64,000 bases of DNA, from positions 620,001-684,000 of the forward strand of contig JAACJK010000004.1 of the NCBI GenBank assembly GCA_013368325.1, given 5' to 3'. Below are positions 17,751-39,287 of the stretch, piece by piece. How positions within the stretch are numbered: the stretch's first letter is position 1; every line of letters starts with the position of its first letter. The notes beneath the pieces are model-generated. The model worked only from the letters and a program-made list of their open reading frames with translations, was not told the DNA's origin and searched no databases. The stretch is from Ephemerocybe angulata (Eukaryota > Basidiomycota > Agaricomycetes > Agaricales > Psathyrellaceae). A program made the position numbers and the translations under genes.

Positions 17751-18796
17751 AGGCCAAATTTGGACTCCGAACAACGCGGATGGCATTCTTTTCCCCCTTC
17801 CACCCCGACTTCAAGCACAAAGCAAGTTCTCTCTACTCTTGACAGAAGGGCAACATGTACGTTCTGAAATGGATTATAAAGAAGAAGCACTGTCAAGCTT
17901 TTCAGGTACAGTTACTTCAATTGAGCGACACTCGTGAACATTTAAGCTACGGGAGCGACCTCTGCGCCCCTACTAGGGTAACTGAGTCCTGATATCATCG
18001 TGGCAGCATTCCTTAGAGCCATCGAACTTTGTTTCTAACTTGAAGGCTGCGCTTCAATAAGTTCAATATAAGTCACCTCTGTCCCCCGGGGCTCGCTTTG
18101 GCCGCCCCGGCGCCAAACATCGCTGACAGCAAGTGTGGCGATACTGGTGGTCTCGTCGCAACATGAACCCATGGTCCTAAGTGGGCCCCGCTCTCTCAAG
18201 GAAGGCTACTCTAAAAAGAGAATCATAGTTTTAGAGACGCAGATATATTGCACAGTGACAGACCTGTTGAGGTCTGCAGACTGAGGGGTATCTGGGGACC
18301 GGGGTTGGTACGCTGAGATAGTTGCGACGAAGTCACGAATTGGGCGTGGGCGCTTACCGGAGCGGCTTTTGAAACGGCGTCTGACGAGACCGTGGCTGTG
18401 CATGATGGTCAAACTCGAACCATTCCAGCCTCTCGAACTCTTCCCTTTCCGGACCCCATAGCGAGCTACAAGCGACACTGTTCGCTCGATCTTGCAACAA
18501 CGACTCTTGCCCTGGTTATAGTCTCGCCAATCTCGCCGGCGTCTCCAAACCTCCGTCACAGCGTCACGATTCGCCTGGAAAGGCCTCATGTTCAGCCCAG
18601 GGCAGCCCTCGGCGCTTATTGCTGGAAAGAGTCCAGTATGTCAACGAAGATCGCTTGCGAGCCGATTCTCTCTGAATTAGGGTCTTTCACAGCTCCGGCG
18701 CCTTCGCAAAGTCTCCGGCAGAAAGAACGTCACGTAGTCTGGTGATGCTGGGCCTGAGTCCAATGGCCGCCTCGTGCCAGCTCAAAAGCTCCCTCA

Positions 18797-18810
18797 GCGC
18801 TTATCGATAA
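18797..18810. promoter_or_regulatory. Palindromic double-GATA element (GCGC TTATCGATAA)
   Basis: TTATCGATAA at 18801-18810 is a perfect palindrome formed by two overlapping inverted GATA-type sites. It lies about 100 bp upstream of the start codon at 18909. The same element recurs at a similar distance from the other three members of the family. Confidence 0.6.
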
Positions 18811-18908
18811 CGATACTCGATTAGCAGCGCAGTCTTGTGACGAGGACTGGCTTCAGCCTTCCGTCAAGCTGAACTTCTCTCCACTGACTACCAATACGCC
18901 ATTGAACG

Positions 18909-21743
18909 ATGTCGAAGGAATTGAAAGGGCCTACGATTGCGTACGCGACCTTTTTCCTCTTGGAAGATACGTGGCACTAACCGATTGCTCACTCAGTGTC
19001 ATTGGAAAGGCTGACAGCGGCAAGACTACTGTGGGCGATTTCTTTTAATTGACTTGGAGGCCCTCGATGACACCAAATCTGCAGTTTATCAGGGCCGTTT
19101 GGGATGCAGCCAGTGGTACGCCTGGGGAGTATACGGATGACGAGCCTACAACGGAGATTGTGGAGTATAGGGTACCACTGTCTGGTGGACTGTTCATGAC
19201 CTTCCTCGATACTCCTGGATTCGACGGGAACCCGGCGAATTCTGAGAATGCGACAACCGAGGGAATACTCAACAGCCTGGAGAAGTACATTACAGACAAC
19301 AAGTGAGTCCTATTTCTACTCTGCAGGCGTCAGTACCTAATATGTGAGTTACCAGTCTCGGGCCCATAGCCTACGCCCTCTTCTTCCTCAATACAGACGA
19401 TATGACCATGTCCGACCTCACGGTCCTGCCGAGGAAGGCCTTCGAGCGAGTTTTCCAAAGCTCCCAAGTCGCATGCATCACCGCATGTTGGGATCGGATG
19501 GAAAGTGGAAACGAAGCTCCGTTCAGCGTCGAAGAGGTAGCGGACAAGGAAGAAAACCTTTATGCCAGTGCGAGGACGGGCAAGAGCCTTTTGGAGTACC
19601 TGGAAAACGGGAGGGAAGATCGAGGGTACAACCTACGTCGTTTTCGCTCAGGCCTACCGGTTGAAGGCGAGGCTACATCGTCGGCCTATTCGTTTCCCCA
19701 GGATATTATGTATCAGCTCCTTGGCGAGCAAGTAAGTGTTCAGCCTTATGCAGGGTCGTTTGGGTGTGCTTATCTATTAATTAACCACAGGTTCTGGATA
19801 CCACTCTGAGGGAAAGGTTAGCGGCGATGACCAAGGAGCGGGATGAACTCGCCAAGGCACGCACTCTTCCGCCCCAGGAGCCTGAGAAACTCGAGCAAGT
19901 ACCTATCACAGCTAACAACGCTGCTCCTCCGCAAACGGACGCTGTCCGTACCCCGCGAACTCGGCGACAGCGCCTCCTAGATACCTTCGACAAGTTCTCG
20001 GCGCAGGTCCTCGAGATGGTGGCCGATCTTGAGAGGGAAGCGTTGGATGTGGCGGACGAGTGTGCGGCTGATCGCGCGGCCTTTGAAGCTGCGTCCGCTG
20101 CGATCGATGAGGCTGAGGGGAGGTTTGCGGAAATTACGGAGCGCGTGAAGATCGCGGAGGAGGAACGTGTCTATTTGGGACAGGAACGCGACGGGCTTCG
20201 TGAACTGGAACAGTCTTTAACTGCACGGCTGGATGAATTTGGAAGAAAGGGTGCACGGCCTTCATTGGGAGTGTCACCTTCGGTGGATCAGCGGCTCGGT
20301 TCGAGACTGAAACACACGCAGGCATCCCTCAAAGACACGGAGGATTGGATATCGAGGGTGGAGGAGTATTATCAGAAGGCTCGCCAGGATGCGGAGCAGG
20401 CTGCTGCGGAGATTGAGAAGTGGAAACACATCAAACAAGGGAAGGAGAGGGAGTTGAATGAATGGCTATTTCGAGAGTCTGAACTGCTTTTGGAGGACCA
20501 GGAGATCTTTCGAACTCTCTACGCGACCTTGTGCACCAGCCTCGATGCCATGCGGGAGGGTCTGAATGATAGCTGGGAGGGGAAGCTTGGGGACAACTGT
20601 GTTTTCTGGGAGCCTGAGCGTCTCGATGGCCGTGTCATCAAGCCAGAGATGGTGGCACGTCCTGGAGATTGGGCACCGGTCATCAAATCGTTTTATGAAA
20701 TGCAGGTTGCACTTGCACTGACGCAACGAATGACCAAGTTCCACTCAACTGTGGTTCAGCGGCTTAAGGTCCGAGAGGATATGGTCGAGCGGGAATGGAA
20801 GAAATGTGTTGAGGGTATCTTTCTGCCCATCCTTCCTCCAACCCCTCCCCCACTGACGGGGCATACCAACATGGTATATGCAGTTGCGTTCTCCTGGGAT
20901 GGAATGAAGATAGTCTCTGGGTCGGGCGACAAAACAGTGAGGGTGTGGGATGCGCTAACAGGCAAGGTGCAGGCTGTCTTGGAGGGGCACAGCAACGCCG
21001 TCTGGTCCGTCGCATTTTCACCGGATGGGGAGCATGTCGTCTCCGGGTCGTACGATGCAACAGTGAGGGTATGGAGTGCGTTGACAGGCAGGGCTGAGAG
21101 GGTGCTTGTTGGGCACACTGGCGTCGTTCGGTCAGTGGCCGTCTCGGCGGATGGATCACGGATTATCTCGGGGTCAGATGATAAGACGGTTAGGATATGG
21201 GACACATTGACTGGCCAGGTTTTGCGCATCCTGGAGGGGCACACCAGTCAGGTCTTTTCTGTGGTATTCTCGGGCGACGGAGCCAAGCCTATTTCTGGAT
21301 CGTGGGATGGCACAGTAAGAGTGTGGAATGCCTTGACAGGGACAGCGCACAATGTTCTGAAGGTAGACAGCCCTGTTTGGTCAATCGCAGTCTCAGGGGA
21401 CAACGGGCGATGGATTGTGACGGCGTCAGATGATGGAATTGTAAGGGTGTGGGATGGGTTGGAAGGCAAGGTGCTGCGAGACTTGAAGGGCCACAAATAT
21501 TCTGCTAGCTCCGTTGCAATTTCTCCAGATGGATCATGGGTCTGCTCTGGGTCGTACGATAAAACATTGAGGGTGTGGGATGCCTCGATTGGAAATGTCC
21601 GGAGCATTTTGGAGGGGCACAGTGGGGCCGTTCGCGCTGTAGCATTGTTGAGGGATGGTAGGCGGATTGCCTCTGGGTCGGACGACAACACGATTAGGGT
21701 GTGGGATGTGGCTTCCTTGACTTCTGTCCCTCATGGAACTTAG
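18909..21743 (+). CDS. NLR-like GTPase-coiled-coil-WD40 protein 1
   Basis: Exons 18909-18940, 18997-19030, 19085-19302, 19356-19731, 19791-21743; 870 residues. The P-loop GKADSGKTTFI is assembled only after removing the 54-nt intron 19031-19084, which otherwise looks like an in-frame stop. Switch I (TTEIVEY), G3 (DTPGFDG) and a G4-like TACWD follow, as in AIG1/TRAFAC GTPases. Residues about 221-560 are heptad-rich coiled coil. From about residue 573 to the end there are seven WD40 blades (VRVWDALTG, SGSxDKTVR), enough for one closed propeller. The layout matches that of NTPase-repeat immune sensors: nucleotide switch plus ligand-reading repeats. No effector domain is fused. The paralogue at 30328-33159 lies in the inverted arm. 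Recognition of the domains is secure; an immune or allorecognition role is inference. Confidence 0.88.
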
Positions 21744-22243
21744 CTGGGAAATAGCACAGTCACGCAATTGTATCAATCAGATTATATTTTTCGAAGAAAA
21801 TGAGACCACCGTCTAAGGCATACCTGTCCAATACCTATCTCGCGAGTAACTGTTGTCATAGCTGCTAAGGCTGTATATAGTATACATTGTCCGGTCCATC
21901 CAAAAGAAAGTAGATGTATATACCGTACTCCCCGCTTTCACCCTGCCGCCGCTCTTCGCCCTGCCCGCCCCGCCCGCCCTGATGCGCCATCAGCTCCCGG
22001 GCAAACATCGCCACACATCGCGGAGGGGGCCACCAAGGGGCCACCGAGCCCTTTCCTCGCAACGTTATCGTCGCATCGTCTCCGTTGTCTTAGTCTTTAC
22101 TTCAAGGACACACCCTGGCTATCTTATCAAGCTCTAAACCGCGCTGGGACTGAGGCCGCAGTTAACCCAATTCGCCATGCTCGTCACGATGTCACCCGAG
22201 CTCATCCAATTGAGCTGACCACCTTATCCTCAGCAGCGGGCGC

Positions 22244-22253
22244 TTATCGATAA
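22244..22253. promoter_or_regulatory. Palindromic double-GATA element
   Basis: TTATCGATAA preceded by GGGCGC, 128 bp upstream of the pseudogene start at 22381. Confidence 0.55.
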
Positions 22254-22380
22254 CGATGCCGATTAAGCAAAACGGCCTTTTAACGCGTGATCCTTGCCTT
22301 CTATGGGGGTTTCAGAATCCAGAAAACCTGCCTCTCTCCCGACCAGCACCATCTGAACACCCTTGAACTTGGCGAGGGAC

Positions 22381-23085
22381 ATGGAGCATACGATTGTGTA
22401 TGTAATCTCCGTTTCTTCAAGAAAGGGTGACGTTAACTGACTACACCCAGCGCTTTAGGGTTGAGACGGACGTGGCGCGATTCGGTCAGTTGCCTTCTCG
22501 GCAGATGGATTGCGGATTATCTCAGGGTCAGACGATAAGTCTGTGACGGTATGGGATGCTTTGACTGGCACGGTTCAGCGCACTCTGGAGGGCCACACCA
22601 AGATCGTTTCATCTGTGACATTCTCGGGAGATGGGTCACGTATTTTCTCTGGGTCATACGACCACTCGGTGAGGGTGTGGGATGCTTTAACGGGCAAACC
22701 AGTGCAAGCAGTCCTCGAGGGGCATACGTACTGTGCCATGACCGTCGCATCCTCGGGGAACAGGCTACAAGTTGTGTCAGGGGCGCTGGACAGGTCGGTG
22801 AGGGTGTGGGACGTGTTGACAGGAAAGGTGTTGAACGTATTGAATGGGCACACTGGCTACGTTAGGTCCGTTTCATTCTCCCATGACGGGTCACGTATCT
22901 GCTCTGCGTCGGATGACAAGACGCTCAGGGTGTGGGATGCATCGACTAGTGTCACGCAGAGCGTTCTGGAGGGACACAATAGTGCTGCTCATGCGGCAGC
23001 ACTCTCAAGAGATGGGAGACGGATTGTCTCCGGGTCTTGGGACAGGTCACTTAGGGTGTGGAATATGCCTTCTTTAGCTAGTTGA
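22381..23085 (+). pseudogene. Internally deleted GTPase-WD40 pseudogene
   Basis: The first exon (MEHTIV, 22381-22397) and a GT-AG intron resemble those of the gene at 34773-37540 (MVEHTIV). The second exon starts like its P-loop exon (ALG beside LLG), then jumps straight into WD40 blade 3. The rest of the GTPase domain and all of the coiled coil are missing. The joined frame hits TAA after about 25 codons. A WD40 frame is open from about 22495 to the TGA at 23085 (five blades, SGSDDKSVTVWDALTG onward) but has no start. The promoter palindrome is retained. A short WD40-only product could arise only by unusual initiation or splicing. Confidence 0.8.
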
Positions 23086-23517: not shown

Positions 23518-23902
23518 ATGCCCAAGAGGAGAAAATCAAGCCCGCGCCACGGCAAGAATATCTCCAAACCTCCCTTGACCGCGAGCTGACCAAATGTTCA
23601 GAACCGACTGGAAGCTCTCTGTTCGACGGATCTTCGAATTTCAGCATCTCGGAGCTACATGCAACGCAATCGGGGAGAGACATCAACTACGCGCATACCG
23701 TCCAAAATATCACGATCGTCAACCAACAGGTGCGTTTACTCTCCTTCCAGGGTAATAGGCCATTCCTAACTCTCGTTCCATACTATCCTCATCTTCCCAT
23801 GTCCTTCAGCCCCTCTCTCAAATCCAAACCTTCGCTGCGGGAGTCTTTGCAGGCTCTGCCATGACCGTTTTATTTGGGAGCCCCGACCACATCTCGACTT
23901 GA
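23518..23902 (+). CDS. Small membrane protein, SSNF-motif family member 1
   Basis: Exons 23518-23551, 23602-23729, 23810-23902; 84 residues. The basic N-terminus (MPKRRKSSPRHEP) is followed by SLFDGSSNFSISEL, a GRDINYAHTVQNITIVN segment, and a C-terminal hydrophobic helix (FAAGVFAGSAMTVLFG) with a short polar end. The first intron uses a GC donor (GCAAGA) with a TTCAG acceptor. Two relatives, at 24636-25048 and 38482-38857, share exon number, intron phases and both motifs, which supports this model strongly. I do not recognise the family. The AGxxAGSAM helix resembles glycine-zipper membrane segments of fungal cell-death executors. The SNFxI segment could be an oligomerisation motif. Both ideas are inference. 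Confidence 0.75.
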
Positions 23903-24635
23903 AGCACACTGAGTACTAGCACCCTCCAAAGGGGTGCAATCTGCGCATGGGTCCATGACGTGCCAGTTGCTAGACTTTTTCTTCGAGTAGGGGACTCGTT
24001 GTGTATTACGGCGGTCCACGATCCCGTGCCACTACATATTCACCGAGTCCTAGCGGGCTGTGCTGTCGCAGGGGCTACAACTTCAAGAGCACCGGGTAAT
24101 TTCCGGGGCTCAGGAGTTCCCCCACGTCCCCCGGGAAGGAATAGATGATCACCGCCCTTGTTATACTTGCAATCTTACGACCTAATTCCCCTGATATAAG
24201 ACTCCCCATTATCCGATTTGTATCCGATGTTATACATGTTTAAACAGTACTCCTCAAGGCTCATTCACTGAAATATATTATAATAAGCGCCCAAACCCCT
24301 CCCTTTTGTGTAGTCATGCCAGGCCCGCCGCCCGAGGGGGCTCATCCTCCGAGTCACCCAATTGTGCGGAGCGAATGAAAGTCGGGTAAAAGCCTATACT
24401 GCCCCACCCAGCGCCTTGTGCTGACACGACGCAGTTCCCTGCAATGAAGTTGGCCGTGCGATACTAATGACAGACATAACCTATTGAATAGCTAGTCCCC
24501 ACGCCCAATGCAGCGAGGGTGGAGATACATTATAGATAAGTAGTTCCACAGCAATGTGGCGTCGTACTAGCTAGCTACAAATAAGCACCATTCCAACCAC
24601 ACTACCAGCTTTCCCCGGAGCTCCTCACATCCGCA
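23903..24635. other. Intergenic spacer
   Basis: No supported gene. The motif TAAGCGCCC occurs at 24284-24292. The 24500-24635 part is the likely promoter of the next small gene. Confidence 0.4.
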
Positions 24636-25048
24636 ATGCCCAAGCGAAAGAGGTCGCTGGCTCGACCTCCAGGTATGCCTGCTGATTAGTGCCCTTACAT
24701 CCACGCGCTGACCGCCTACTCTACTCACGCAGAGCCGCCTAGCAGGAGCTCCCTATTCGACGGATCGTCGAATTTCAGCATCTCCGAGCTTAGTGCGACA
24801 CAGGCCGGGGGAGACGTCAATTATTCGCATACCGTCCAGAACATCCAAGTCACCATTAACCAACAGGTGCGCGCCGAGCACAACCGAAAGCACTCACGCG
24901 AGTGCTTTCTCGTTACCCTCGGCCTATCTAATCCTCGTCCCCTTCCCTTCAGTCCCCATTCCATCTACAGACATTTGCCGCTGGTGCCCTCGCGGGCTCA
25001 GCCATGACCGTCGGTTTATTTGGGACCCCAGACCACAGCCTGCTCTAG
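24636..25048 (+). CDS. Small membrane protein, SSNF-motif family member 2
   Basis: Exons 24636-24672, 24733-24866, 24953-25048; 88 residues; all junctions GT-AG, phase 1 then phase 0 as in the other two members. The protein starts MPKRKRSLARPPEP, continues SLFDGSSNFSISEL, then GGDVNYSHTVQNI and VTINQQ, and ends in FAAGALAGSAMTVGLFG plus TPDHSLL. The single hydrophobic segment is about 17 residues and contains small-residue spacing (AGxxAGS) suited to helix packing. The neighbours are GTPase-WD40 genes on both sides. Conservation across three paralogues at splice sites and protein level shows that these are real genes. Function is unknown. Confidence 0.78.
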
Positions 25049-26538
25049 AGTTAGTTGAGAATGGATCATACAGTGACTCCCGTCGTACGCCCGAGACTCT
25101 CCTGACATGGTAGGTAACTCTGGGTGGAATCACTGATAGATCCCCTTCTCTTCGAGCGCAGGACACTTGGCTGGGATACGCAATGGATACAATTTCGGAT
25201 TGATGATCGTGGACCTCCGGCCAAGCCAGACGCAAGTTGTGTTGTCGTTGTGGGTTTTCCTAAAATAAAAAACATTTTTTCTCACCTTCCCTTCTCCCGT
25301 TCCAGTGCAGATCTGCTACTGTCCTTCTCGAGTCCCTTTGCCTGTTTTTCAACCTTCCGAACGTGCTCCAAATCGTCCTGCCCACTTCCCATTGAAAACG
25401 GAACTCATACCCTACATACTTGCCCTCTCCTTTCTCTATGACATCTATCTTCTCTTTGTACTCTTGTATCATCACTTGACCTGTGCTTCTGTATCGAGTT
25501 ACATGGCCTCTCGGCTCTCCATATCGTTGGTTTTGCCTATTTTGCTGCATCTGAAAGGATGCCACACGTACCCGCACACCATCGCCCCACCGCACATCCC
25601 ATGACAGGTTTTCCGGAGCCCCTATCGTACCGAGAGGGGATAAGATAACACTCAACTCCACCTCCCAACGCCGGGCGCTTACCCACGATCCACTAAGCGC
25701 CCACTGCGACCCCCCGCGTCTCCTTCAACCCGCCAACTTCCCACTCACCGCCCACCGAGCAACCGGTCGTCAAAGTAAAAACCGAGTCGCTACACATGAA
25801 TTCAAGCTACAGACGAGGCCAAAGATAAATACACGCTTAAATACAAGGACTATTCGTACAGTACAATTTGGATACAAGACAGGCGGAGACATGAAAGAGA
25901 TTGGGAGGTGCAAAGTGATGTATGGTATGTAATGGTATAGTGATGAAAGCGGACATGGTATGGAGTTTTGTAGTGAGATTGAAATAAACTGAGAACTGTA
26001 AAACGTGAAACTGAATTGGATACATGGGATGTGGTGGACGAACTAGAAATTGGGTTTGAGATACGAGGGTTAAGGGCGAGGTGGATGCGTGCATAGAAAC
26101 GAAGAGATTGGGTGATAACGTATAAATAATGTGGGTTTGAAAGGGATGCGGTGTATCAATCGAGCGCGCGCAAGTACAAGTCGATTTGGTCGTGAAACAA
26201 GTAAAGAGAGGAAAAACAGAATGGAAGGAGACCTGGCGTATGGAAGGGCCAGGTATTGCTTTTTGACTGCTCATGGGGAACGATATGGCACAAACGATTG
26301 AAAAGAGAAAGAGAAAGAGAAAGAGAAGGAAAATGTAATGGAATGGGATATGCTCATCTGTAGCGGGACGTAATCGGTCGGATCCTCTTTCATGCTTTCG
26401 TTCGTTCGTCGTTCATCATCCGCCCACCAACCCCTCCTCTCTATCCCCTCCCACCGCCCCGAAGGATCCACCCTCCCTCTTAGACTCGTCATGATACGCA
26501 CAACTCATCACTGCTAATTCGTCGTTCACCCCCCTTCC
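25049..26538. other. Intergenic spacer and 3' flank
   Basis: No supported gene. A compact inverted pair, GGGCGCTTA at 25673-25681 and TAAGCGCCC at 25694-25702, is separated by 12 nt. The part from about 25830 to 26538 is probably the 3' untranslated region of the gene on the complementary strand; it contains a short (GAAA)n-like run near 26303-26325. Confidence 0.4.
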
Positions 26539-29500
26539 CTAAACCCACCGCACAAAGCTCTCATAAGGCTTCTCCGCCTCCCTCCCTCCCCTCGCCACAC
26601 TATCCTTCAACTCCGGCCTCCCCTCCATAAACGGCACAAACGTCCCATGGTGGTCCTCATACCCCACCATATGCGCATGCTTTCCCACTCCCTTCGGCGG
26701 TCCTACACGAGCGTCAGCATACTGCACTCTTCTTTCCTTTCAACCCCCCAGAAAGAGGTTCAAAACAAAGGTTCAAGTAAAGGTAAAGAAAAAAGATAAA
26801 GAACCAATAGGCCAATCCGTAGGTAAAACAGAGACAGAGCAAACGAAAAACAGCAACGAAAGGCAACGCACCATTCCCATCCCTAGGATCCCTAGGATAC
26901 CCCGCCAACTCCGGCGGATACGCAAGCTGCTTCGGCGCATACACAACATACCCCGAATCCGTAAGATGATCTCCCCGACTATTCCAAAACCCATACCGCC
27001 TCTTTCCCTGCGTCCCCTGCCCCTGTCCTTGCGCCTGCACCTGCCCCTGCCCCTGCAACTGACTCGGGTTCCCATACACACTAGCCGGCGCCTGATGAGA
27101 CCCATGCTCCCTCCCCGGCGTCGAATACCCCAAATACTGCTGCTGCTGACCCTGCTGCTGCCCGCTGCCTTCTCGCACAGGCGTCCCATACCCCTGCGGA
27201 CCAGGCCCATACGTCCTCGAATACGGCGGCGGCGGCGACGCATACGCATCCCTCGCATCCCTCTCTCCGAGTCTCCCTCCCCCATCCCTCTCCCGCTCCC
27301 TACCATGCCCACCAACACCCCCCTCATCAGACCCCAAACTACTACTACTCCTATTCCCCCTCTCCGCCTTCACACTCAACCCCAGCCTCTCCCCCGCACC
27401 CCCACTCGGCGGCGTAGGGTACGCATTCACACTCCCAGTTCCAGTTCCACTTCCTCCAGCAACACCATACGCCCCCGCCCCCGCCCCCGAAGATACAGGA
27501 GGCGGCCCAGGCGGCGCACTCATATACGCAGGATACGAATTCCCCCTCGTCACCGACGGCGGCGTTCCCGCCCCGCCCAGAAAATTCGGCGCAGGAATCG
27601 GCACCTCTCCCCCATACCCCGGCACAGGGACCAACGGATCCCCCATCCTCCCGCCCGCCATCGAGGCAGACCCCGCCCTAGACCTCCCCTTCTCCTTCTC
27701 CCTCTCCCTCTCCCTCTCCCTCTCCCTCTCCTTCCCACCCTTACTCTTACTCTTACTCTTACTCTTCCCCCTCCTCCTCTCATCCGCCTCATCCGCATAC
27801 GCCTCATACTGGCTTTCCCTTTCCCTCTCCCTCTCCTTATCCTTCTCACTTGAATCGTAAGCATACCCCCTCCCCCGCTCCCTATCCTCCGACCCCCTCC
27901 GACTGCTCCCCGCAGGCGTGGGCGTCCCCGCCGCAGAAGCATAATGCGGCGGTGAGAAGTACGATGCGGACGGTGGTGGGGTTTGGTACGCTTCCCAGCC
28001 TCTCTGTGGGGTATTATTCGAAGAGCCCGAGCTTCCATGCTGCTGCTGCTGGGGATACGCCTGCGACTGCGACTGCGCCTGTGGTGCATACGCCTGACTC
28101 TGCGCCTGGGGATACGCCTGACTCTGACTCTGACTCTGCGATTGAGGATTCGGCTGGGCTTGAGCGTACGCCGAGTGCGAATGCGAAGCGCTAGAATGCC
28201 CGCGATGCGTTTTCTGCGCCTCAGCCTGCTGCGCAAGATGATACGGATACGGTCCACTCGTGTTCGCAGGCGGCGGGCTCCGCATAACATCCCTATCCCT
28301 ATCCCTATTTCCTCCTTCGTCACGCCCTCTTTCTTCCCTTCCGCTCTCTCTTCCGCCCTCCCTTCCACTCTCCCTTCCACTCTCCCTTCCGCCCTCCCTT
28401 CCACTCTCTCTCCCACTCTCCCTTCCACTCTCTCTTCCGCTCTCCCTTCCACTCTCCCGATCCCTTTCACGATCACGTTCCCTCCCACCCTCCTTCTCCC
28501 TCCCCCAATCCCCACTAACCCTACCACCCCACATCGGATTTGTATTCGCCCCCTCCCTGCCAGACCCATCGCGCTCCCAAAATCCCGCAGCCGTAACCCT
28601 CTGCACAGGCGGGTACGAGTTGCTATGCGGGTGCGCCGGTGGGTGCTGGTACCCCGATGCCGACGATGTACTAATACTACTATTTCCCCCAAGCCCCGAA
28701 GCAAATGTCGAAGAACCCGAAGTAAACGCTGAAGAACCCGAAGCCGATGTCGACGTCGACGCAGGATACGATGTCGATCTCGGCGGGGGCGTGCCCCGCG
28801 CGGGCGACGGCTGGCGCGAAACAGGTCTACTCCCACTCCCCGCGTTGCCATACCCATGCACCGACTCGTGCGACTGGCGCCTCGAACTCGACGCCGCCGC
28901 ATACGCGCTCGCAGACGACACCGCAGGGGCAGGGTATGTATTCGTGCGCGACGTAGAGGTAGACGATACCTCCGGAATAGTGCTAAGCACCGCTGGCGTG
29001 CTCGCATGGCGGCCAAGTGTAGAGGCAGGTGTACTCGACGCGCTCGTCGACGCCGACGACGACGACGTGTAGGTGCTCGAGCCGAGGGAGTGCGAGGCCG
29101 CGAGCTGGCGTGTATTACTGGAAGGCTTGGGCGTAGACGCGATAACGAGGGGCGAAAGGATGCTGCTCGGCTCGTCCGAGAGCTGGGGGACGCCGCTGAT
29201 CGACGAGGGCGGGGCGAGGGTGTTGGGCATAGATGCGTGCCTTGCAAGGCCCCCGGGGACAGCGCGATCAGGGGTGGGGGTCGGCGTGGAGGCGGGGGGG
29301 AGGTGCAGGCTGTGGAGGTGCGCATCGATCGAGGTCGATCCGAAGCGCTGGTAGTGCTCGGGCGTGCGCACGATCTTGGGCGAGAACGTCGGGCGGAGGG
29401 GGCCAGAGGATGTAAAACTCTCTCGTACGGGTCTTGGTGCGTCGTCCGATTCCGCCGAGCAGCTGCTGGTGGACGGCGAGGAGGGTGTGGACTCGTCGCC

Positions 29501-30007
29501 ATCACTATCGCCGCCACCTCCATCGTCGTCTTCGTCGTCGTCGTCATCGGAAAGGGGCTTGGGCGCCCATATCCACGGGGTCGTCTTGTGCACGGCGCCA
29601 GCGTCGTCGAGCCCCGCCACATACTCAGGTATCCCATTATACAAACTCTTGCTCGGATCCATGTTCTCCAGTCCAAGCGGGTTATCGCTGAGCTTGCTCG
29701 CCAGATACTCCTTGCTCGGCGCCTTGCTGCGTTTCTGGAACGGGTTCTGCTGCTGCTGGGCCGCCGCCGCTGCGTGCGCTTGGGCCGCGTACTGTGCCTG
29801 CGCCTGCTGCTGCTGCTGCGCGCGGAACATCGCCCAGTGGCCCGCGGGGATCCAGGGCACCTGTGCCTGGGGCGGGGCGCCCTGGTAGTGCGGGTTGGGC
29901 CGCCAGACGCCGTTCGTCCATGCCGCGGGGGGCACCCCCGGCGCACAGGGCGGCGCGGATCCGTTGAAGGGTACCGGCGGGCGCGCGTGGTTGGCGGAGT
30001 ACTGCAT
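26539..30007 (-). CDS. Low-complexity conserved basidiomycete protein of unknown function
   Basis: Exons, complement: 26539-26702 and 26872-30007, one 169-nt GT-AG intron; 1099 residues from the ATG at 30007. Conserved-looking blocks lie at both ends. The N-terminus has PPVPFNGSAPP, WIPAGHW and a KLSDNPLGLENM segment followed by TPWIWAPKPLSDDDD. The C-terminus has PPKGVGKHAHMVGYEDHHG. Between them is about 900 residues of disorder: poly-Gln/Ala, poly-Ser, an Arg/Glu/Ser tandem array (ESGR units, codons about 28320-28480), Gln-Ser-Tyr-Pro runs and KSKSKSK stretches. I recall proteins with these end blocks from other mushrooms, without a known function. The disorder and prion-like composition suggest an RNA- or condensate-linked role, but this is speculative. 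Confidence 0.7.
28315..28490 (-). repeat. In-frame trinucleotide-family tandem repeat (SGRE units)
   Basis: Coding minisatellite with a 12-nt period (complement TCCGCTCTCTCT-like, + strand CTCTCCCTTCCA variants). It produces about a dozen ESGR/EGGR units in the protein at 26539-30007 and is likely length-variable. Confidence 0.75.
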
Positions 30008-30327
30008 GCAAGGACCAGACCACAGGGCACCGCCACACAAGCCCCCTCCGCGTTGTGTGGCGATGTTTGCCGGGGGGCTGATGGCGCATCAGGGCGGGCG
30101 GGGCGGCAGCGTGAAAGCGGGGGAAGGTTGGGGGAAGGTATATACATCTACTTTCTTTTGGATGGACCGGAGAATGAATACTATATACAGCCTTAGCAGC
30201 TATGACAACAGTCACTCGTGAGTTAGGTATTTGGATAGGTATGGGCCGGTGGTCTCATTTTCTTCGAAGCGAGCGAGGAAAACATGTAATGTGATTGATA
30301 CAATTGCGTGACTGTGCTATTTCCTAG

Positions 30328-33159
30328 CTAAGTTCCATGAGGGACCGAAGTCAAGGAAGCCATATCCCACACCCTGATTGATTTGTCTTGCGACCCAGAG
30401 GCAATCCGCCTCCCATCCCTCGACAATGCTACAGCATAGACGGGATCGCTGTGCCCCTCCAAAACACTCCGGACATTTCCAGTCGAGGCATCCCACACCC
30501 TCAATGTTTTATCGTACGACCCAGAGATGATCCATGATCCATCCGGAGAAACTGCAACGGAGTTAGCAACACCGCTGTGGCCCTTCAAGACTTGCAGCAC
30601 CTTGCCTTCCAACCCATCCCACACCCTTACAATTCTGTCGGATGATCCCGTCACAATACATCGCCCGTTGTCCCCTGAGACTGCGATTGAGTGAACAGCG
30701 CTGCCGACCTTCAGAATATTGTGCGCTGTCCCTGTCAAGGCATCCCACACCCTTACTGTGCCATCCCACGATCCAGAAATAGCCTTGGCTCCGTCGCCCG
30801 AGAACACCGCAGAATAGATGTAGTTGGTGTGCCCCCCCAGGACACGCAAAACCTGGCCAGTCAATGTGTCCCATATCCTAACCGTCTTATCATTTGACCC
30901 CGAGAGAATCTGTGTCCCATCCTGCGAGAAGTTAACTGACCCAACCCAGTCAGTGTGTCCCACGAGCACCCTCTCAGTCCTGCCTGTCAACGCACTCCAC
31001 ACCCTCACCGTCCTATCGCCCGACCCGGAGACGATGTGCTCCCCATTCGGTGAAAATGCGACAGACGTGACGGTGTTGCTGTGCCCCTCCAAGAAAGCCT
31101 GCGCCTTGCCTGTTAGCGCATCCCAGACCCTCACTTTATCGTCGCTCGACCCAGAGACTATCTTCATTCCATCCCAGGAGAAAGCAACCGCGTTTACCTC
31201 TCGATTATGCCCCGTCAGTGGGGGAGGGGGTGGAGGAAGGCTGGGCAGAAAGATACCCTGAACACATTTCTTCCATTCCCGTTCAACCAGATCCTCCCGG
31301 ACCTTAAGCCGCTGAACCACTGTCGAGTGGAACTTGGCCATTTGCCCTGTCAGCGCGAGTGTAACCCCCGTTTGATAGAACGACTCGATGACCGTCGCCC
31401 AATCTCCAGGATGCGCCAGTATCTCAGGCTTGATGACACGGCCATCGAGACGCTCCCAGAAAACGGGGTTGTCCCCAAGCTTTCCCTCCCAGCTATCATT
31501 CAGACCCTCCCGCATGGCATCGAGGCTGGTGCACAAGGTCGCATAGAGAGTTCGAAAGCTCTCCTGGTCCTCCAAAAGCTGTTCAGACTCTCGAGATAGC
31601 CATTCATTCAACTCCCTCTCCTTCCCTTGCCTGATGTGTTTCCACTTCTCAATCTCCGCAGCAGCCTGCTCCGCATCCTGGCGAGCCTTCTGGTAATACT
31701 CCTCCACCCCCGATATCCAATCCTCCGTGTCTTTGAGGGATGCCTGCGTGTGTTTCAGTCGCGAACCGAGCCGCTGATCCACTGAAGGTGACACTCCCAA
31801 TGAAGGTCGTGCGCCCTTTGTTCCAAATTCATCCAGCCGCGCAGTTAAAGACTGTTCCAGCTCACGAAGCCCGTCGCGTTCCTGTCCCAAATAGACACGT
31901 TCCTCCTCCGCGATCTTCACGCGCTCCGTAATTTCCGCAAACCTTCCCTCAGCCTCATCGATCGCAGCGGACGCAGCTTCAAAGGCCGCGCGATCAGCCG
32001 CACACTCGTCCGCCACATCCAACGCTTCCCTCTCAAGATCGGCCACCATCTCGAGGACCTGCGCCGAGAACTTGTCAATGGTATCGAGGAGGCGTTGCCG
32101 CCGAGTTCGCGGGGTACGGACAGCCTCCGTTTGCGGAGGAGCAGCGTCGTTAGCTGTGGTTGGTGCTTGTTCAAATTTCTCCTGGAGTGGAAGAGCATGT
32201 AACTTCGCAGCGAGCTCATCCCGCTCCTTGGTCATCGCTGCCAACCTTTCTCTCAAAGTGGTATCCACTACCTGGGGTTGATCGATGAGTAAGTACGCCC
32301 TAACGATCCCGTATGACATCGGATACTTACTTGTCCGCTGAGGAGCTGAAACACGATATCCTGAGGGAGTGTATAGGCCGCTGATGTAGCCTCGCCCTCG
32401 ATAGGTAGGCCCGAGCGAAAACGACGTAGGTTGTACCCTCGATCTTCCCTCCCATCCTCTAGGTACTCCAAAAGGCTCTTGCCCGTCCTCCCACTAGCAT
32501 AAAGCCTTTCCTCCAAGTCCGCTACCTCCTCGACGCTGAATGGAGCTTCATTTTCAAATTCCATCCGATCCCAATATGCGGTGAGGCATGCGACTTGGGA
32601 GCTTTGGAAAACTCGCTCGAAAGCCTTCCTCGGCAGGACCGTGAGGTCGGACATGGTCATATCGTCTGTATTGAGAAAGAAGAGGGCATAGGCTATGGGC
32701 CCGAGACTGATAACACACATATTAGGCACTGATATATGGTGCGCAAAGGAATTAATACTCACCTGTTTTCCGCAATGTACTTTTCCAACTCGTTGAGTAT
32801 CCCCTCGGTTGTAGCATCCTTAGAATTCGCCAGGTTCCCGTCGAATCCAGGAGTGTCGAGGAAGGTCATGAACAGCCCACCAGACAGTGGTACCCTATAC
32901 TCCACAATCTCCGATGTAGGCTCGTCATCTGTGTACTCCCCGTGCGTACCACTGGCTGCATCGCATACGGCCCTGATAAACTGCAGCTTCGGTGTCATCA
33001 AGCGCCCTTGAGTCTACCAAAAGAGTTCACCCACAGTGGTCTTGCCGCTGTCAGCCTTTCCAATAACACTGAGTGAGCAATCGGTTAGTGCCACGTAACT
33101 TCCAAGAAGAGGAAAAAGGTCGCGTACGCAATCGTAGGCCCCTTCAGATCTTTCGACAT
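30328..33159 (-). CDS. NLR-like GTPase-coiled-coil-WD40 protein 2
   Basis: Exons, complement: 30328-32271, 32331-32706, 32763-32980, 33035-33068, 33128-33159; 867 residues. Exons 1-4 have the same lengths as in the copy at 18909-21743. The P-loop GKADSGKTTFI, switch I TSEIVEY, DTPGFDG and TAYWD are present. The coiled-coil region is nearly identical to that of the paralogue. The seven WD40 blades differ mainly in the residues just after each GH: NREVNAV for TNMVYAV, SNTVTSV for SNAVWSV, TDWVGSV for TGVVRSV. The last intron is inside the coding region before VVDTTLRERL. It shares its promoter palindrome with the other family members. Role as for copy 1. Confidence 0.88.
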
Positions 33160-33254
33160 CGTTCAGTGGTGTGTTGGTGGCAGGCAGAGGAGAAGCTCAG
33201 ATTGACGCATTCAGCTTATCCCTCGTCACAAGGCTCGCTGGCAATCGAACATCG

Positions 33255-33264
33255 TTATCGATAA
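33255..33264. promoter_or_regulatory. Palindromic double-GATA element
   Basis: TTATCGATAA followed by GCGCC, 96 bp upstream of the start at 33159 on the minus strand. A second, weaker copy (ATATCGATAA then GCGCC) lies at 33483-33492. Confidence 0.6.
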
Positions 33265-34042
33265 GCGCCGAGCAAGCCGTGAGCTGACACGAGGCGGCGA
33301 GGCCATTAGACTCTGCCCAATCGCAGGGCCAAATCTTCATATGGCCATGACACTTGAGTTATGATCCTTCTGCCAGAGACTTTGAATTCAAAGCGACGGC
33401 GCGGGGGCTGTGGGGCTCGCTGGATCTGGGAAGCCCCGGCTTAGGGAGAACCAGCGCGCAGGTTATCTTCACTGAGCAATCGATATCGATAAGCGCCGAG
33501 GGCTGGGCTGAACATGAGGCCTTCGCTGGGTGATCAGGAAGTGTGACGCTGTGACGGAGGATTCAAGACGCCGGCGAGACTGACGATACTATAGCCAGGG
33601 CGAATGTCGTTATTGCAATATTGAAAGAGAAGTGTCGCATGTAGCTCGCTATGGGGTCCGGAAAGGAAAGAGTTCAAGCTTTCAAGCGGGAATGGTTCGA
33701 GGTTGACCGTAATGCACAGCCACGCTCTCGTCAGACGAAGCGCCGTTTCAAAAGCCGCTCTGGTAAGCGCCCACGCCCAATTCCTCGCAAGCGTCTCACC
33801 AACCCCGGTCCCCTCAGTCTGCAGGCTTCAATAGGTCTGTCACTGTGTTCTATACCCGCGCCGCTAAAAATATGATTCTCTTTCTAGAGTAGCCTCACTT
33901 TGGAGAGAGAGGGCCAGGAGCGCATGTTGCGACGAGACCACCATTGACAGTACTCTATCGCCACACTTGCTGTCAGCAATTGCCATTGCCTAAGGAATGC
34001 TGCCACGGTGATATAAGGTCTCAGTTACCATACCTTCAAGAT

Positions 34043-34772
34043 GTGTGACAGCAATCAAGGGAAACCATCGACGCCGCGGGCACCTGGAGGATAATATATT
34101 GTGATATGGGCCTCAAATGGGCCTGCGAGTTGATGTATTCTGCTGTGAGGTCCTTCGCGTGACAGATATCCCTCTACCAGGCTTCAGCCAAACCATTCTG
34201 TCCTCGATTTTTGTTGGCCATACTTATGCTCAGCCATGAAATCGGCCTCCACAAACACATTGTCGCTCCTCCAGAGATCTACACCGTGCTGCCAGCGTTG
34301 TCAAATGGCAGTCCCTCCAAGCAAAAATCCACACTGAACGCGACATGACTTGTTACAGCCCTCCTCGTCGAGTGGTACGCCTCGCATTCTGCTCACTGAA
34401 CACTTTATCCTGCTTATAAGTTATCATCCCTGTTGAATTCTGCAGCAGGTTTCCAGTTGGGGTCGCGGCGCTTTTCATCAAGGTTTGAGTGCATAGTTCA
34501 ATTGTCGAAAGTTGAGGTGGCAGACATACACGGGTGTTATGTTTAATACAGCCCCCCTTGTATTATATTATGGTGGCCGTATTCAACACTTCGGAGGTCC
34601 TGGTCTTTTCCAGAATCCATGCATGGCAGCACAATACCTTTGCGTGCCTCTTAAGATAAACACAAGTAATAAAACATTGAGAGGCGATTGGGATCAGAGC
34701 AGTTTTGGAGAACTTCAACTAAAATCGTATCTAGCAAGATTACAATGCTATCTTATCGCTAATTTCCATCAG
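34043..34772. other. Intergenic spacer
   Basis: No supported gene. It is the 3' flank of the third GTPase-WD40 gene. Confidence 0.4.
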
Positions 34773-37540
34773 TTACAAAGTCAAGGGGGCCATATCCCAC
34801 AACCGAACTGTCCTGTCGTCCGACCCAGATGCAACCCGCCTACCATCTCTTGATAATGCTACTGTGTTAACATCACTGCTGCCATGACCATTATTCACAC
34901 TTCGCGCTGTGCCAGTCGAGGCATCCCACACCCTCAATGTGTCGTCGTACGACCCAGAGACAATCCATGATCCATCCTGAGAAAGCGCAACAGACCTAGC
35001 GTTACCGCTATGTCCCTTCAAAACCCTCAGGACCCTGCCTTCCAACAGATTCCACACCTTCACCATTCCATTCGACAATCCTGTCACAATCCATAGTCCA
35101 TCCGCCGAGACTGCAACAGACTCTATTTGATTCTCTTCTTGCAGGACTTTGTGCACCCCGCCCGTCGAAGCATCCCACACCCTCACTGTTTTATCGTCCG
35201 ACCCAGAGATAATCTTCGATCCCTCGCCCGAGAATACCACAGAATAAACCATACCGGTGTGCCCCTCTAAGATGCGCTGAACCTGGCCAGTTGATGCATC
35301 CCATACCCTGACCGTCTTATCCTTTGACCCTGAGACAATCCGTGATCCATCCGCCGAGAAGGCAACCGACCAAACGGCGTCGGTGTGCCCAACAAGGTCT
35401 CTTTCAACTCTGCCTGTCAAAGCATCCCACACCCTCACCGTCTTATCGCTGGACCCGGATATGATGCGCTCCCCATCTGGTGAGAATGCGACAGAAGTAA
35501 CGGTACTGCAGTGCCCCTCCAAGACAAGCTGCACCGTGCCTGTCAGCGCATCCCACACCCTCACTGTTTTATCCTCTGACCCAGATACTATCTTCATTCC
35601 ATCCCAAGAGAACGCAACTCCCCATACCCTGTCGCTATGCCCCATCAGTGGGGGAGGGGGTGGAGGAAGGACCTTGAGTAGAAAGATATCCTTAACGTAT
35701 TTCTTCCATTCTCGCTTGATCATATCCTCTCGGGCCTTAAGCCGTTGAACCACGGTCGAGTGAAGCTTGGCCATTCGTTGCGTCAGCGCAAGTGTAACGT
35801 CCGTTTCGTAGAACGACTCAATGACCGGGGCCCAATCTCCAGGATGTGCCAATATCTCAGGCTTGACGACGTAGTCGCCAAGACGTTCCCAGAAAAGGTG
35901 TTCGCCCCCAAGCTTCCCCTCCCAGCTCTCCTTCAAACCCTTCCGCATGGCATCGAGGCTGGTGCACAGAGTCTCTTGGAGGGCTTGAAAGGTCTCCCGC
36001 TCCTCCAGAAGCCTTTCAGACTCTGGCGATAACCACTCATTCAACTCCCTTTCCTTCCCTTGCTTAATGTGTTCCCACTTCTTCATCTCCGCAGCTGCCT
36101 GCTCCATTTCCTGGCGACTCTTCTGGCAATAATCCTCCGCCGCCGATTTCCACCCCTCCATCTCACTAATAAATCCCTGCGTGTGCTCCAGCCTCGAACT
36201 GAGCTGCTCGGTCACTGAAGGCCACACCCCAACTGAAGGCCGTGCGCCCTTCATCCCAAGCTCATCCAGCCGCTTCGACAAAGACCCCTCCAGTTCACGA
36301 AGCGCGTCAAGTCCCTGCCCCATATGGGCACGATCCTCCTCTGCTACCTTGACACGCTCTGCACTTTCTGCCAACCTGCCTTCAGCCTCCTTGATTGCAG
36401 CAGACGCAGCTTCAAAGGCCGCACGATCGGCCGCACACTCGTCCGCCACATCCAGTGCTTCCCTCTCGAGCTCGGCCACCATCTCGAATACCTGAGCCGA
36501 GAACCTGTCGATGGTATCCAGGAGGCGCTGTTGCCGAGTTCGCGGCGTACGAACAGCCTCTTTCGGAGGAGCGGCATCGTCAACAGCAGTCGGGGCTTGT
36601 TTCTCCTGGAGGAGAAGGGTATACTTGGCAGCGAGTTCATCCCGTTCCTTGGTTACCGCCGCTAGCCTTTCCTCCAACGTGGTATCTGATCCCTGGGATG
36701 AACGAATGAGCAACCGCCCCACTGTTTTTGAATTCGACTTACCGGTCTGGCGAAGAGCTTGAGCATGATGTTCAGGGGAGATGAGTAGGCTTCGATGGGC
36801 AGGCCAGAGCGGAAATGGAGGATGTCGCCCTCTCGGTTTGGCCGTCCGCCGTGCAAGTACTCCAACAGGCTTCCGCTAGATATTCCGCTCGCATAAAGGC
36901 TTTCCTCCTTGCTTTGCGCCTCCTCAGCGGTGATTTGACGCCCTTCATCTTCCTCGATCTGGTCCCAACGCGTGGTGACGCATGCAACTTGAGCGTTTGG
37001 AAAGAGCCTCTCAAAGGTGCGTCGTGCACGGGGCTTGAATTCGGTCGTCGCCATGTCGTTTGCATTCAGAAACACGAGAACATGCGATACGGGCACAGAT
37101 GTTCTGTTTCCATCATGAGAACCCATCTCGAAATAAAAAACCAAGACTATACTCACCCATTAGTTGCAAGATGCTCCTCCAGCACCCGAAGGATTTCCTC
37201 GGTCTCCATTGCGCCCTCCCCTCCCGCCTCATAGCCATCGAATCCGGGAGTGTCGACGAATTTCAGTGTCTTCCCATCTGGAAGAGGTACGTCGTATTCC
37301 ACGATGCCCGAAGTCGGTGCTTCAGTGGCAGGTGGTCCAGGTATAGCAGCGTCGACGGCATGCTGAACGGCCTTGATGAACTGTGATTCTCGATGAGATC
37401 GATGGCCTCCTGGAGACAAAAGTGGGAACGCACAGTGGTCTTGCCGGCGTCACTTCTGCCTAAGAGACTGATTAACGTTGGTTAGCTTTGCATACCTTTG
37501 AGGGAACAAAGTTTACTTACACAATTGTATGCTCCACCAT
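34773..37540 (-). CDS. NLR-like GTPase-coiled-coil-WD40 protein 3
   Basis: Exons, complement: 34773-36692, 36743-37103, 37157-37380, 37434-37467, 37521-37540; 852 residues, all introns 50-53 nt. It begins MVEHTIVLLGRSDAGKTTFI, a clear P-loop once the intron 37381-37433 is removed. Switch I is SGIVEY, G3 DTPGFDG, and the G4-like site TTRWD. A coiled coil covers about residues 213-555, then seven WD40 blades end the protein (last blade VRLWDMAPLTL). It is more distant from the two inverted-repeat copies than they are from each other. It is divergent from, and about 940 bp away from, a small SSNF-motif gene (38482). The domain calls are secure and the biological role is inferred. Confidence 0.88.
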
Positions 37541-37674
37541 TTCCTTCTTGATTTCCTTTGCCAAATTTCGGAAAGCAGCGTTCGAATGGTCAGGAGAGAA
37601 GCTGGGTTTGCCGGATTCAGCGTCGTCCTATTGCAGCTATCGTGCGCTGATTGCTAACCTGCCTATCGATACCG

Positions 37675-37684
37675 TTATCGATAG
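37675..37684. promoter_or_regulatory. Palindromic double-GATA element, one mismatch
   Basis: TTATCGATAG followed by GCGCC, 135 bp upstream of the start at 37540. It departs from the palindrome at one base. Further upstream, AAGCCGCTCT and TAAGCGCCCACG (37950-37972) are also shared with the two inverted-repeat copies. Confidence 0.5.
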
Positions 37685-37972
37685 GCGCCGAGGATGAGGG
37701 CTCCAGCACGAGGCTCAATTGAATGACCTCAGGTGATGTTGTGACGAGGACGTCGGTTTGAGGCTGCGAACTCATTTTAAGCGCACTATCTCGCGGTTTC
37801 GCGCGATTGAGCTCGACGTGGATGTGAGTAGACCGAGCTGTTGCAGGACTGAGAGGAAGACAGCGTTCATGGCTCACGACAAGGTCTGGAGTGAAAGGTT
37901 CGAGGACAGGCCCGACGCACAGCCACCCACGTGTGAGCACCGATTCAAAAGCCGCTCTGATAAGCGCCCACG

Positions 37973-38481
37973 GCGAGGGTCATATCCGCGCCGACGGTTT
38001 TCTTGCTCCCATAGCTGCTACAGTATCCACGGGTAGATGAAAAGACGCAACCCCCCCCAAAGTAAGCGGTCTAGTTGCGGTCCAGGGACACGGACGTCTT
38101 CGAGATGAAGCCAGCATTGAAAGGGCTCTTGCTTTGAGGAGACGTCTTGCAATTGGCCAGTTGCCAGTCGAAAGTGGGCCAACTTCATGGTTCTCGCGGC
38201 GACTTACATGATGCGTATTAACCTGTGTTCGCGAGGGAGTAATCAGACCAGAGGTCTTAGCCTTTAGGTCATGACCACTTTCCCGGGCATCTAACCTGAA
38301 GCAAGCCTGCTCTGCACTGTGGGCGACGCTTCATGCTGTAAGTGTGTACAACTCGATTGGTTTTGAACAACCAATGCCAAATATGCGGCAATTTTGATGG
38401 TACTTTGATGGTTGATGGATTAGGGGTATATAGACACTGGAATGAGAGCGGTTGAGCCCCCATAGTTTGCGAGTGCCCGAG
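37973..38481. other. Intergenic, promoter side of small membrane gene 3
   Basis: No supported gene. The GTATATAG sequence near 38426-38433 lies about 50 bp before the start codon and could be a TATA box. Confidence 0.35.
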
Positions 38482-38857
38482 ATGAATAAGTCTAGGAAGA
38501 GATTCAGAAATAACGGCGGTGAGTATCTCCCATGAGTCATTTTTAATGAGATCAAGGGCTGATTCTCTTTTGCTACGTCCCAGATATTCAGCCTCCTGAA
38601 AGTCCTTCACTGTTCCGTGAATCATCGAACTTTGGAATCTCCGAATTCCGCGCTACCACCTCAGGAAGGGACACCATGATCCAACATATTACAATCGTCA
38701 ACCAAAGCAGTAATGTATGTATGGGGATACCAGGAAGTCAAGGTAAAAGTCTCTGATAAGCGACCACATCTAGTTTACGGCGTTTACTGCTGGAGCCATT
38801 GCAGGCTCCGCGATGGCATTCGTTTTATTTGGGCGTCTAAACCACACTCTGGTTTAG
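38482..38857 (+). CDS. Small membrane protein, SSNF-motif family member 3
   Basis: Exons 38482-38518, 38584-38714, 38774-38857; 83 residues; GT-AG junctions with the same phases as the copies at 23518 and 24636. N-terminus MNKSRKRFRNNG, then SLFRESSNFGISEF, GRDTMIQHITIVNQ, and the C-terminal helix FTAGAIAGSAMAFVLFG with the tail RLNHTLV. It is the most diverged of the three, yet it keeps SLF, SSNF, ISE, GRD, IVNQ and AGxxAGSAM with LFG. That pattern points to selection on both the N-terminal motif and the membrane helix. It sits upstream of and divergent from the third GTPase-WD40 gene. Function unknown. Confidence 0.78.
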
Positions 38858-39192
38858 CCCATTGGTAGGCGCAATAGCCGATCAGTGGACTATTGGGTAA
38901 TAGACGTCTACATACCCATCCTCCAAAAGCGTGTCCGACGAGTCAGTTCTTGCGCGCCTCGATAGCCTTAACAGAACGTCCGCCGCGGGCAAGTGGCTAT
39001 TGCATGCTCGTCTATCCTCAACGTTCAATTTCATCTATCCTACTTGTACTAGCTGCCTTCCATACTTTAGTTTTTTGATACTATATATTCGCACCCCAAG
39101 TCTGTCCCAGAATTCGCTTTGCTCAAACGTTCAGTGGTCTCCCTGACTCGCTCATTAAGGTCGTGTCGACGCGCAGCGTGACGAAACCCGTG

Positions 39193-39215
39193 ACGCGTCA
39201 CACGCGGGCACGCGT
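39193..39215. promoter_or_regulatory. Two MluI cell-cycle boxes (ACGCGT)
   Basis: ACGCGT at 39193-39198 and 39210-39215, 73-95 bp before the start codon at 39288. In fungi, MBF binds such boxes at G1/S-expressed genes, so the downstream gene may be expressed at the start of S phase. Confidence 0.5.
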
Positions 39216-39287
39216 GATGTTGAAGTAAATGGCCCTGGGTGCTGCTTGGACCTTCCCACCACAAACTCGACGAACTCAGGATCCAGG

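Follow-up and report, generated by a model that had tools for sequence, protein, structure and literature searches.

Tiny Ephemerocybe angulata proteins with a motif akin to NLR N-termini, predicted partners of NACHT receptors

Three very short genes, g1, g2 and g3, lie among genes of a GTPase-coiled coil-WD40 type within a 64,000-nucleotide stretch (the window, positions 620001-684000 of the 870,786-base contig C67, from an assembly of 58.7 Mb in 232 contigs) of Ephemerocybe angulata, a mushroom of the family Psathyrellaceae in the Agaricales. A preliminary description of this stretch had noticed them as tiny genes with a common three-exon layout and common intron phases, and this was confirmed: consensus-site splice models give proteins of 83-88 residues, intron 1 is in phase 1 and intron 2 in phase 0 in all three genes, and the model of g2 is letter-identical to the public E. 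angulata protein DFP72DRAFT_1168047 (P0001). They are part of a family of nine genes, all located on C67, which share one architecture and encode proteins of 73-88 residues. By sequence comparison, a motif in these proteins is related to the N-terminal motif of NACHT-type NOD-like receptors (NLRs) encoded in the same genome. We predict that the small proteins are effector-side partners of these receptors, likely membrane-acting, and give this reading a probability of about one half.

The family counts are lower bounds obtained from exon-profile and single-protein searches of the genome contigs. A profile of exon 2 from g1-g3 identified three further complete copies on C67 (E 1.3e-27, 1.6e-11 and 4.9e-9), a result that chance would hardly give. 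When the other contigs were searched with the family queries only motif-like matches were returned, and no further family member was found. For three of the nine genes (g2, g7 and g9) the splice model equals the public annotation letter for letter, and the six copies modelled by script have introns 1 and 2 in phases 1 and 0. The first intron is of the GC-AG type in both g1 (window 23552-23601) and g4, and GT-AG in the other copies. The status of g8 is uncertain, its exon 1 being located about 1.2 kb upstream of exon 2.

The copies are under constraint. Ratios of nonsynonymous to synonymous substitution rates (dN/dS, or Ka/Ks) were 0.09-0.25 in the seven of 15 pairs with a finite dS, the remaining pairs being saturated; g1 and g4, which are 86% identical, form the sole unsaturated pair (dS 0.70, dN/dS 0.11). 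A ratio near 1, which the preliminary description had named as an outcome that would speak against its reading, is excluded wherever the ratio could be computed. Pseudogenes were ruled out for g1-g7 and g9 on the basis of complete frames, ratios well below 1 where computable and the three identical annotations. Pheromone precursors terminate in a CaaX box; none of the nine proteins has such an ending, and this candidate was also ruled out. Protein searches, which covered annotated proteins only, found no homologues in other species (1/104 candidates at E 1, 2/3667 and 4/2332 at E 10, every match being from E. angulata); the annotated E. angulata proteins on C67 from these searches were D9611_007932, D9611_007907 and D9611_007874. 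A plasmid collection gave no match to the small proteins. No description of them was found in the available portions of the literature on fungal NLRs and signalling motifs, including PMC9815663, PMC12881547, PMC7885112, PMC7889193 and PMC12261475.

Table 1. The small genes, their motif and tail exons, and the neighbouring GTPase-WD40 genes (positions are those of the window unless preceded by C67)
Feature	Position	Strand	Exons	Product or sequence	Remarks
g1	23518..23902	+	23518-23551, 23602-23729, 23810-23902	84 aa	consensus-site splice model
g1 exon 2, NLR-type motif	23602..23729	+		LFDGSSNFSISELHATQSGRDINY	profile matches; compared by profile with NLR N-termini
g1 exon 3, glycine-rich tail	23810..23902	+		TFAAGVFAGSAMTVLFG	
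g2	24636..25048	+	24636-24672, 24733-24866, 24953-25048	88 aa	splice model
g2 exon 2, NLR-type motif	24733..24866	+		LFDGSSNFSISELSATQAGGDVNY	
g2 exon 3, glycine-rich tail	24953..25048	+		FAAGALAGSAMTVGLFG	
g3	38482..38857	+	38482-38518, 38584-38714, 38774-38857	83 aa	splice model
g3 exon 2, NLR-type motif	38584..38714	+		LFRESSNFGISEFRATTSGRD	
g3 exon 3, glycine-rich tail	38774..38857	+		FTAGAIAGSAMAFVLFG	
g4	C67:801.1-801.5k	-			
g5	C67:613.4-613.8k	-			public annotation uses a different first intron
g6	C67:612.1-612.5k	-			
g7	C67:385.4-385.7k	+			letter-identical to public annotation
g8	C67:386.7-388.2k	+			long first intron; model uncertain
g9	C67:529.7k	-			letter-identical to public annotation
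gene A	18758..23085	+		GTPase-coiled coil-WD40	separate WD40 stretch 22465-23082; approximate bounds; outside family
gene B	30331..33073	-		GTPase-coiled coil-WD40	approximate bounds; outside family
gene C	34776..37979	-		GTPase-coiled coil-WD40	head to head with g3; approximate bounds; outside family

All nine proteins are built in the same order: a polybasic start (4-6 Lys or Arg among the first 12 residues in each), the motif, a variable polar stretch rich in Asn or His, and a glycine-rich tail. In g2 numbering the invariant residues are F21, S25, F27, G38 and D40 of the motif and A67, G68, L79 and F80 of the tail. The tail is encoded by a separate exon in every gene, and seven of the nine tails contain GxxxG. 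Of the earlier picture of tiny membrane proteins with a C-terminal, AG-rich helix ending in LFG, the glycine-rich tail holds, but its hydrophobicity is borderline; LFG is present in g1-g5, where it is followed by another 7-11 residues, while g6-g9 stop at LF. Pfam searches at E 0.1 gave no match in g2 or g5. An AlphaFold2 model of g2 with P0002 contained a low-confidence helix at g2 residues 59-74; overall it was poor (mean predicted local distance difference score, pLDDT, 52.8) and was not used for a fold search.

Outside the family, queries with the small proteins produced 11 distinct weak matches. Three of these (C11:187k, C86:972k and C207:957k) are directly upstream of a NACHT domain, each passing the Pfam NPHP3_N cut-off, while about 0.03 would be expected (P ~2e-6) from the 191 NACHT matches used (150 scored of 248 candidates, plus 41 of 48). 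In the reciprocal search the N-terminus of the NLR at C86:972k matched g8 (E 0.05). With the same query 19 of 23 matches, at 18 distinct loci, were located within 1.5 kb upstream of a same-strand NACHT, as were 8/8 matches of a second NLR N-terminus; the two queries together give 26 NLR loci with related N-termini, although both counts include the queries themselves and many of the matches are NLR paralogues.

Twelve further NLR N-termini, six from each of two systematic samples of 19 NPHP3_N loci and chosen before being read, were scored with the small-protein profile against 2000 stretches of mixed coding and non-coding sequence of C67. As a group they scored above this background (Mann-Whitney P 6e-6). 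L062 and L063 outscored all 2000 stretches, the scores of L070, L068 and L069 were reached by 8, 73 and 119 of them, and the remaining seven were unremarkable (207-859). A motif resembling FFxxAxxF was present in 7/12 of the sampled N-termini, a subjective count by eye. Profile comparison with hhalign gave a probability of 84.1% for the full family against the seven sampled NLR motifs; for the family motif only, it gave 93.0% against the same seven and 97.5% against the three NLRs that the small-protein queries had found. In each of the latter two comparisons 0/300 column shuffles reached the score. These are upper estimates, since the seven motifs had been selected and trimmed by eye and the three, having come from the small-protein queries, are circular. 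A related motif is found directly upstream of NPHP3_N matches within the same genome. C67 itself carries two NACHT genes (569.3-574.0k; L071 and L072), both with FFNAAQQLSIGTVTTTIVSGN N-termini (FFNAAQQLSIG...SGN) that possibly represent a diverged form of the motif.

A 2022 survey described a meta-family of agaricomycete NLR motifs, NLR05/08/22/29/44, comprising 689 sequences, for which its Table 1 gives 0 neighbours and 0 effectors (PMC9815663). As far as the available parts of the survey describe this group, the motif analyzed here resembles it in being a short N-terminal motif of NLRs, found in Agaricomycetes in many copies per genome, with three hydrophobic residues at intervals and G[DN] at its C-terminal side (PMC9815663). 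It differs in being present as well in tiny stand-alone proteins that bear a glycine-rich tail. We infer from these described features, rather than from a logo match, that the motif is a member of the NLR05/22 group. According to the same parts of the survey, two single-species MLKL-like C-termini share a pattern with NLR N-termini, and one of them includes NLR22 instances (PMC9815663).

In the HET-S and HELLP systems, a membrane-acting protein separate from the NLR adopts an amyloid fold that is templated by the NLR N-terminus (PMC7885112). Like HET-S/NWD2 and HELLP/PNT1 of Podospora, as presented in the available text of that source, the genes described here have a motif common to a receptor N-terminus and a separate protein, with membrane action being in our case predicted. 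Unlike those systems, the small proteins have no HeLo or HeLo-like domain (Pfam, g2 and g5, E 0.1) and at 73-88 residues are too short for one, the motif precedes the glycine-rich segment in 9/9 instead of being C-terminal (PMC7885112), and none of the NACHT matches listed is adjacent to a small gene. The preliminary description had also treated a glycine zipper as a feature of the HET-S and HELLP types, for which no support was found in the available portions of the literature on these systems. Bacterial BELL-BASS proteins also resemble the small proteins, in that a small hydrophobic-helix domain is linked to an amyloid signalling motif which an NLR has as well; those proteins, in the text available, are helical bundles with a C-terminal motif, encoded by adjacent or overlapping genes (PMC7889193).

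By architecture, the small proteins would fit the missing effector role of the agaricomycete NLR motif group. If the partner reading holds they are predicted to work like HET-S and HELLP, yet they would not be members of those types, having no HeLo domain, a reversed order and no adjacent receptor. In its most specific form, which we offer tentatively, each would be a minimal cell-death executioner of about 80 residues, an NLR amyloid-type motif fused to a glycine-zipper tail, fired at a distance through templating by dispersed NLRs. Under the partner reading in general, an activated NLR would cluster, and its N-terminal motif would then take a beta-arch or amyloid-like form and template the same form in the small proteins. 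Clustering would gather the weakly hydrophobic GxxxG tails, which could then act on a membrane. The polybasic start would assist by binding acidic lipids, and death of the hyphal compartment would follow. Receptor and partner would meet through the common motif and not through gene neighbourhood. Agaricomycetes are very rich in NLRs (150 scored of 248 candidates here), many of which have short N-termini and no effector domain; if correct, this reading would supply missing effectors for the motif group. A compact partner in the same genome would also permit direct testing of amyloid-type signalling in mushrooms and indicate to what size an effector of this kind can be reduced.

Several observations weigh against this reading, in addition to the self-inclusion, paralogy, circularity and selection by eye noted above. 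Nine of the 12 NLRs in the sample are not set apart from the background by the profile (more than 70 of the 2000 stretches reach their score). Among the matches listed, the nearest NACHT NLRs on C67 (569k and 574k) are separated from every small gene by about 38 kb or more, and the N-termini of these two give a weak alignment (reached by 20 and 2 of 1000 shuffles) and negative profile scores. The motif also heads proteins that are neither NLRs nor family members, namely two on C112, one on C149, one at C86:1218k and a four-locus His-rich family on C63. The tails are weakly hydrophobic (best 17-residue Kyte-Doolittle mean 1.30-1.84) and their summed insertion energies are unfavourable (+1.0 to +5.1), so that the term membrane protein is a prediction. 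Finally, g2 is identical in sequence across what appear to be two strains; the DFP72 locus-tag prefix of its public match, on a contig of 790,812 bases, probably denotes another strain. An allorecognition gene is therefore not suggested.

Some of this evidence would suit other explanations. CARD-only and PYD-only proteins regulate by means of a motif alone, and by analogy the small proteins could cap or sponge NLR filaments and so dampen signalling, the tail serving only as a membrane tether. Their small size, the motif held in common with NLRs, the constraint on several copies and the weak hydrophobicity of the tail are all in keeping with such a role, but a tail that always has its own exon and mostly retains GxxxG exceeds what a decoy needs, and we regard this explanation as rather unlikely. 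Slightly less probable still is that the motif serves agaricomycetes as a multi-purpose N-terminal sequence, for localisation or oligomerisation, and that the job of the small proteins is unrelated to NLRs. We count its presence at the head of the non-NLR proteins on C112, C149, C86:1218k and C63 as real evidence for this, and 8/11 of the weak matches are not next to a NACHT. However, the three that are far exceed expectation, and of the groups seen here to carry the motif, NLRs, with 26 loci, are the largest.

The remaining explanation, in which the small proteins serve the adjacent GTPase-WD40 genes as effectors, is the one to which the preliminary description leaned, and we consider it very improbable. 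The neighbours that it called NLR-like, genes A, B and C, each with seven WD40 stretches matched in the main frame, are GTPase-coiled coil-WD40 genes and not NACHT NLRs: no NPHP3_N or NACHT was found within the window among 150 scored of 248 candidates or among the 48 matches of a second search. Their GTPase part was recognised by sequence, Pfam GTPase matches being below the cut-off. In favour of this explanation, gene A is followed by g1 and g2, gene C and g3 are arranged head to head, and a GTPase-WD40 relic (C67:793.4-794.3k) is situated about 7 kb from g4. About 35 such loci exist in the genome (41 matches, six merged by hand), 12 on C67 and 23 elsewhere, and they are clustered. Under uniform placement on C67 with six small-gene clusters, three of six places had a GTPase-WD40 locus no farther than 10 kb from the small genes (random mean 0.96, P 0.056), one of the three being next to the relic. 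P was 0.119 with a radius of 5 kb and 0.022 with one of 15 kb; the proposed co-location is weak and varies with the radius chosen. The open reading frame after g3 (window 39159-39743) has a near copy at C67:793152-793613, beside the relic; the region near g4 looks like a duplicated segment, which would account for part of the co-location. On the other side, the exon-2 motif was not found by profile in GTPase-WD40 proteins, the N-termini of A and C do no better than shuffled sequence (760 and 421 of 1000 shuffles score at least as high), 23 of the ~35 loci are on contigs for which the searches gave no small gene, and no GTPase-WD40 locus was found within 25 kb of g5-g8 or within 10 kb of g9. 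The adjacent genes are thus not supported as receptors. What survives of the earlier proposal is a motif-bearing partner of an NLR, the likelier receptors being NACHT NLRs encoded in other parts of the genome.

Among the other proteins headed by the motif, those at C112:88.8k(-), C112:115.1k(+) and C149:234.7k(-) (L032, L033 and L056) are longer, with a motif start such as SMFKGAQNFGVNEIHSVIAGRDA followed by a non-NLR region. The loci on C63 at ~157.2k(-), 207.9k(-), 216.5k(-) and 242.1k(+) (L050-L053) encode short proteins with a motif resembling FQxAENFVLGDVDIIAAGGNVERH and form a second motif-bearing small family, in which no glycine-rich tail was seen. In three of these four loci the motif is followed by an alternating His tract, and the exon starts are basic where seen.

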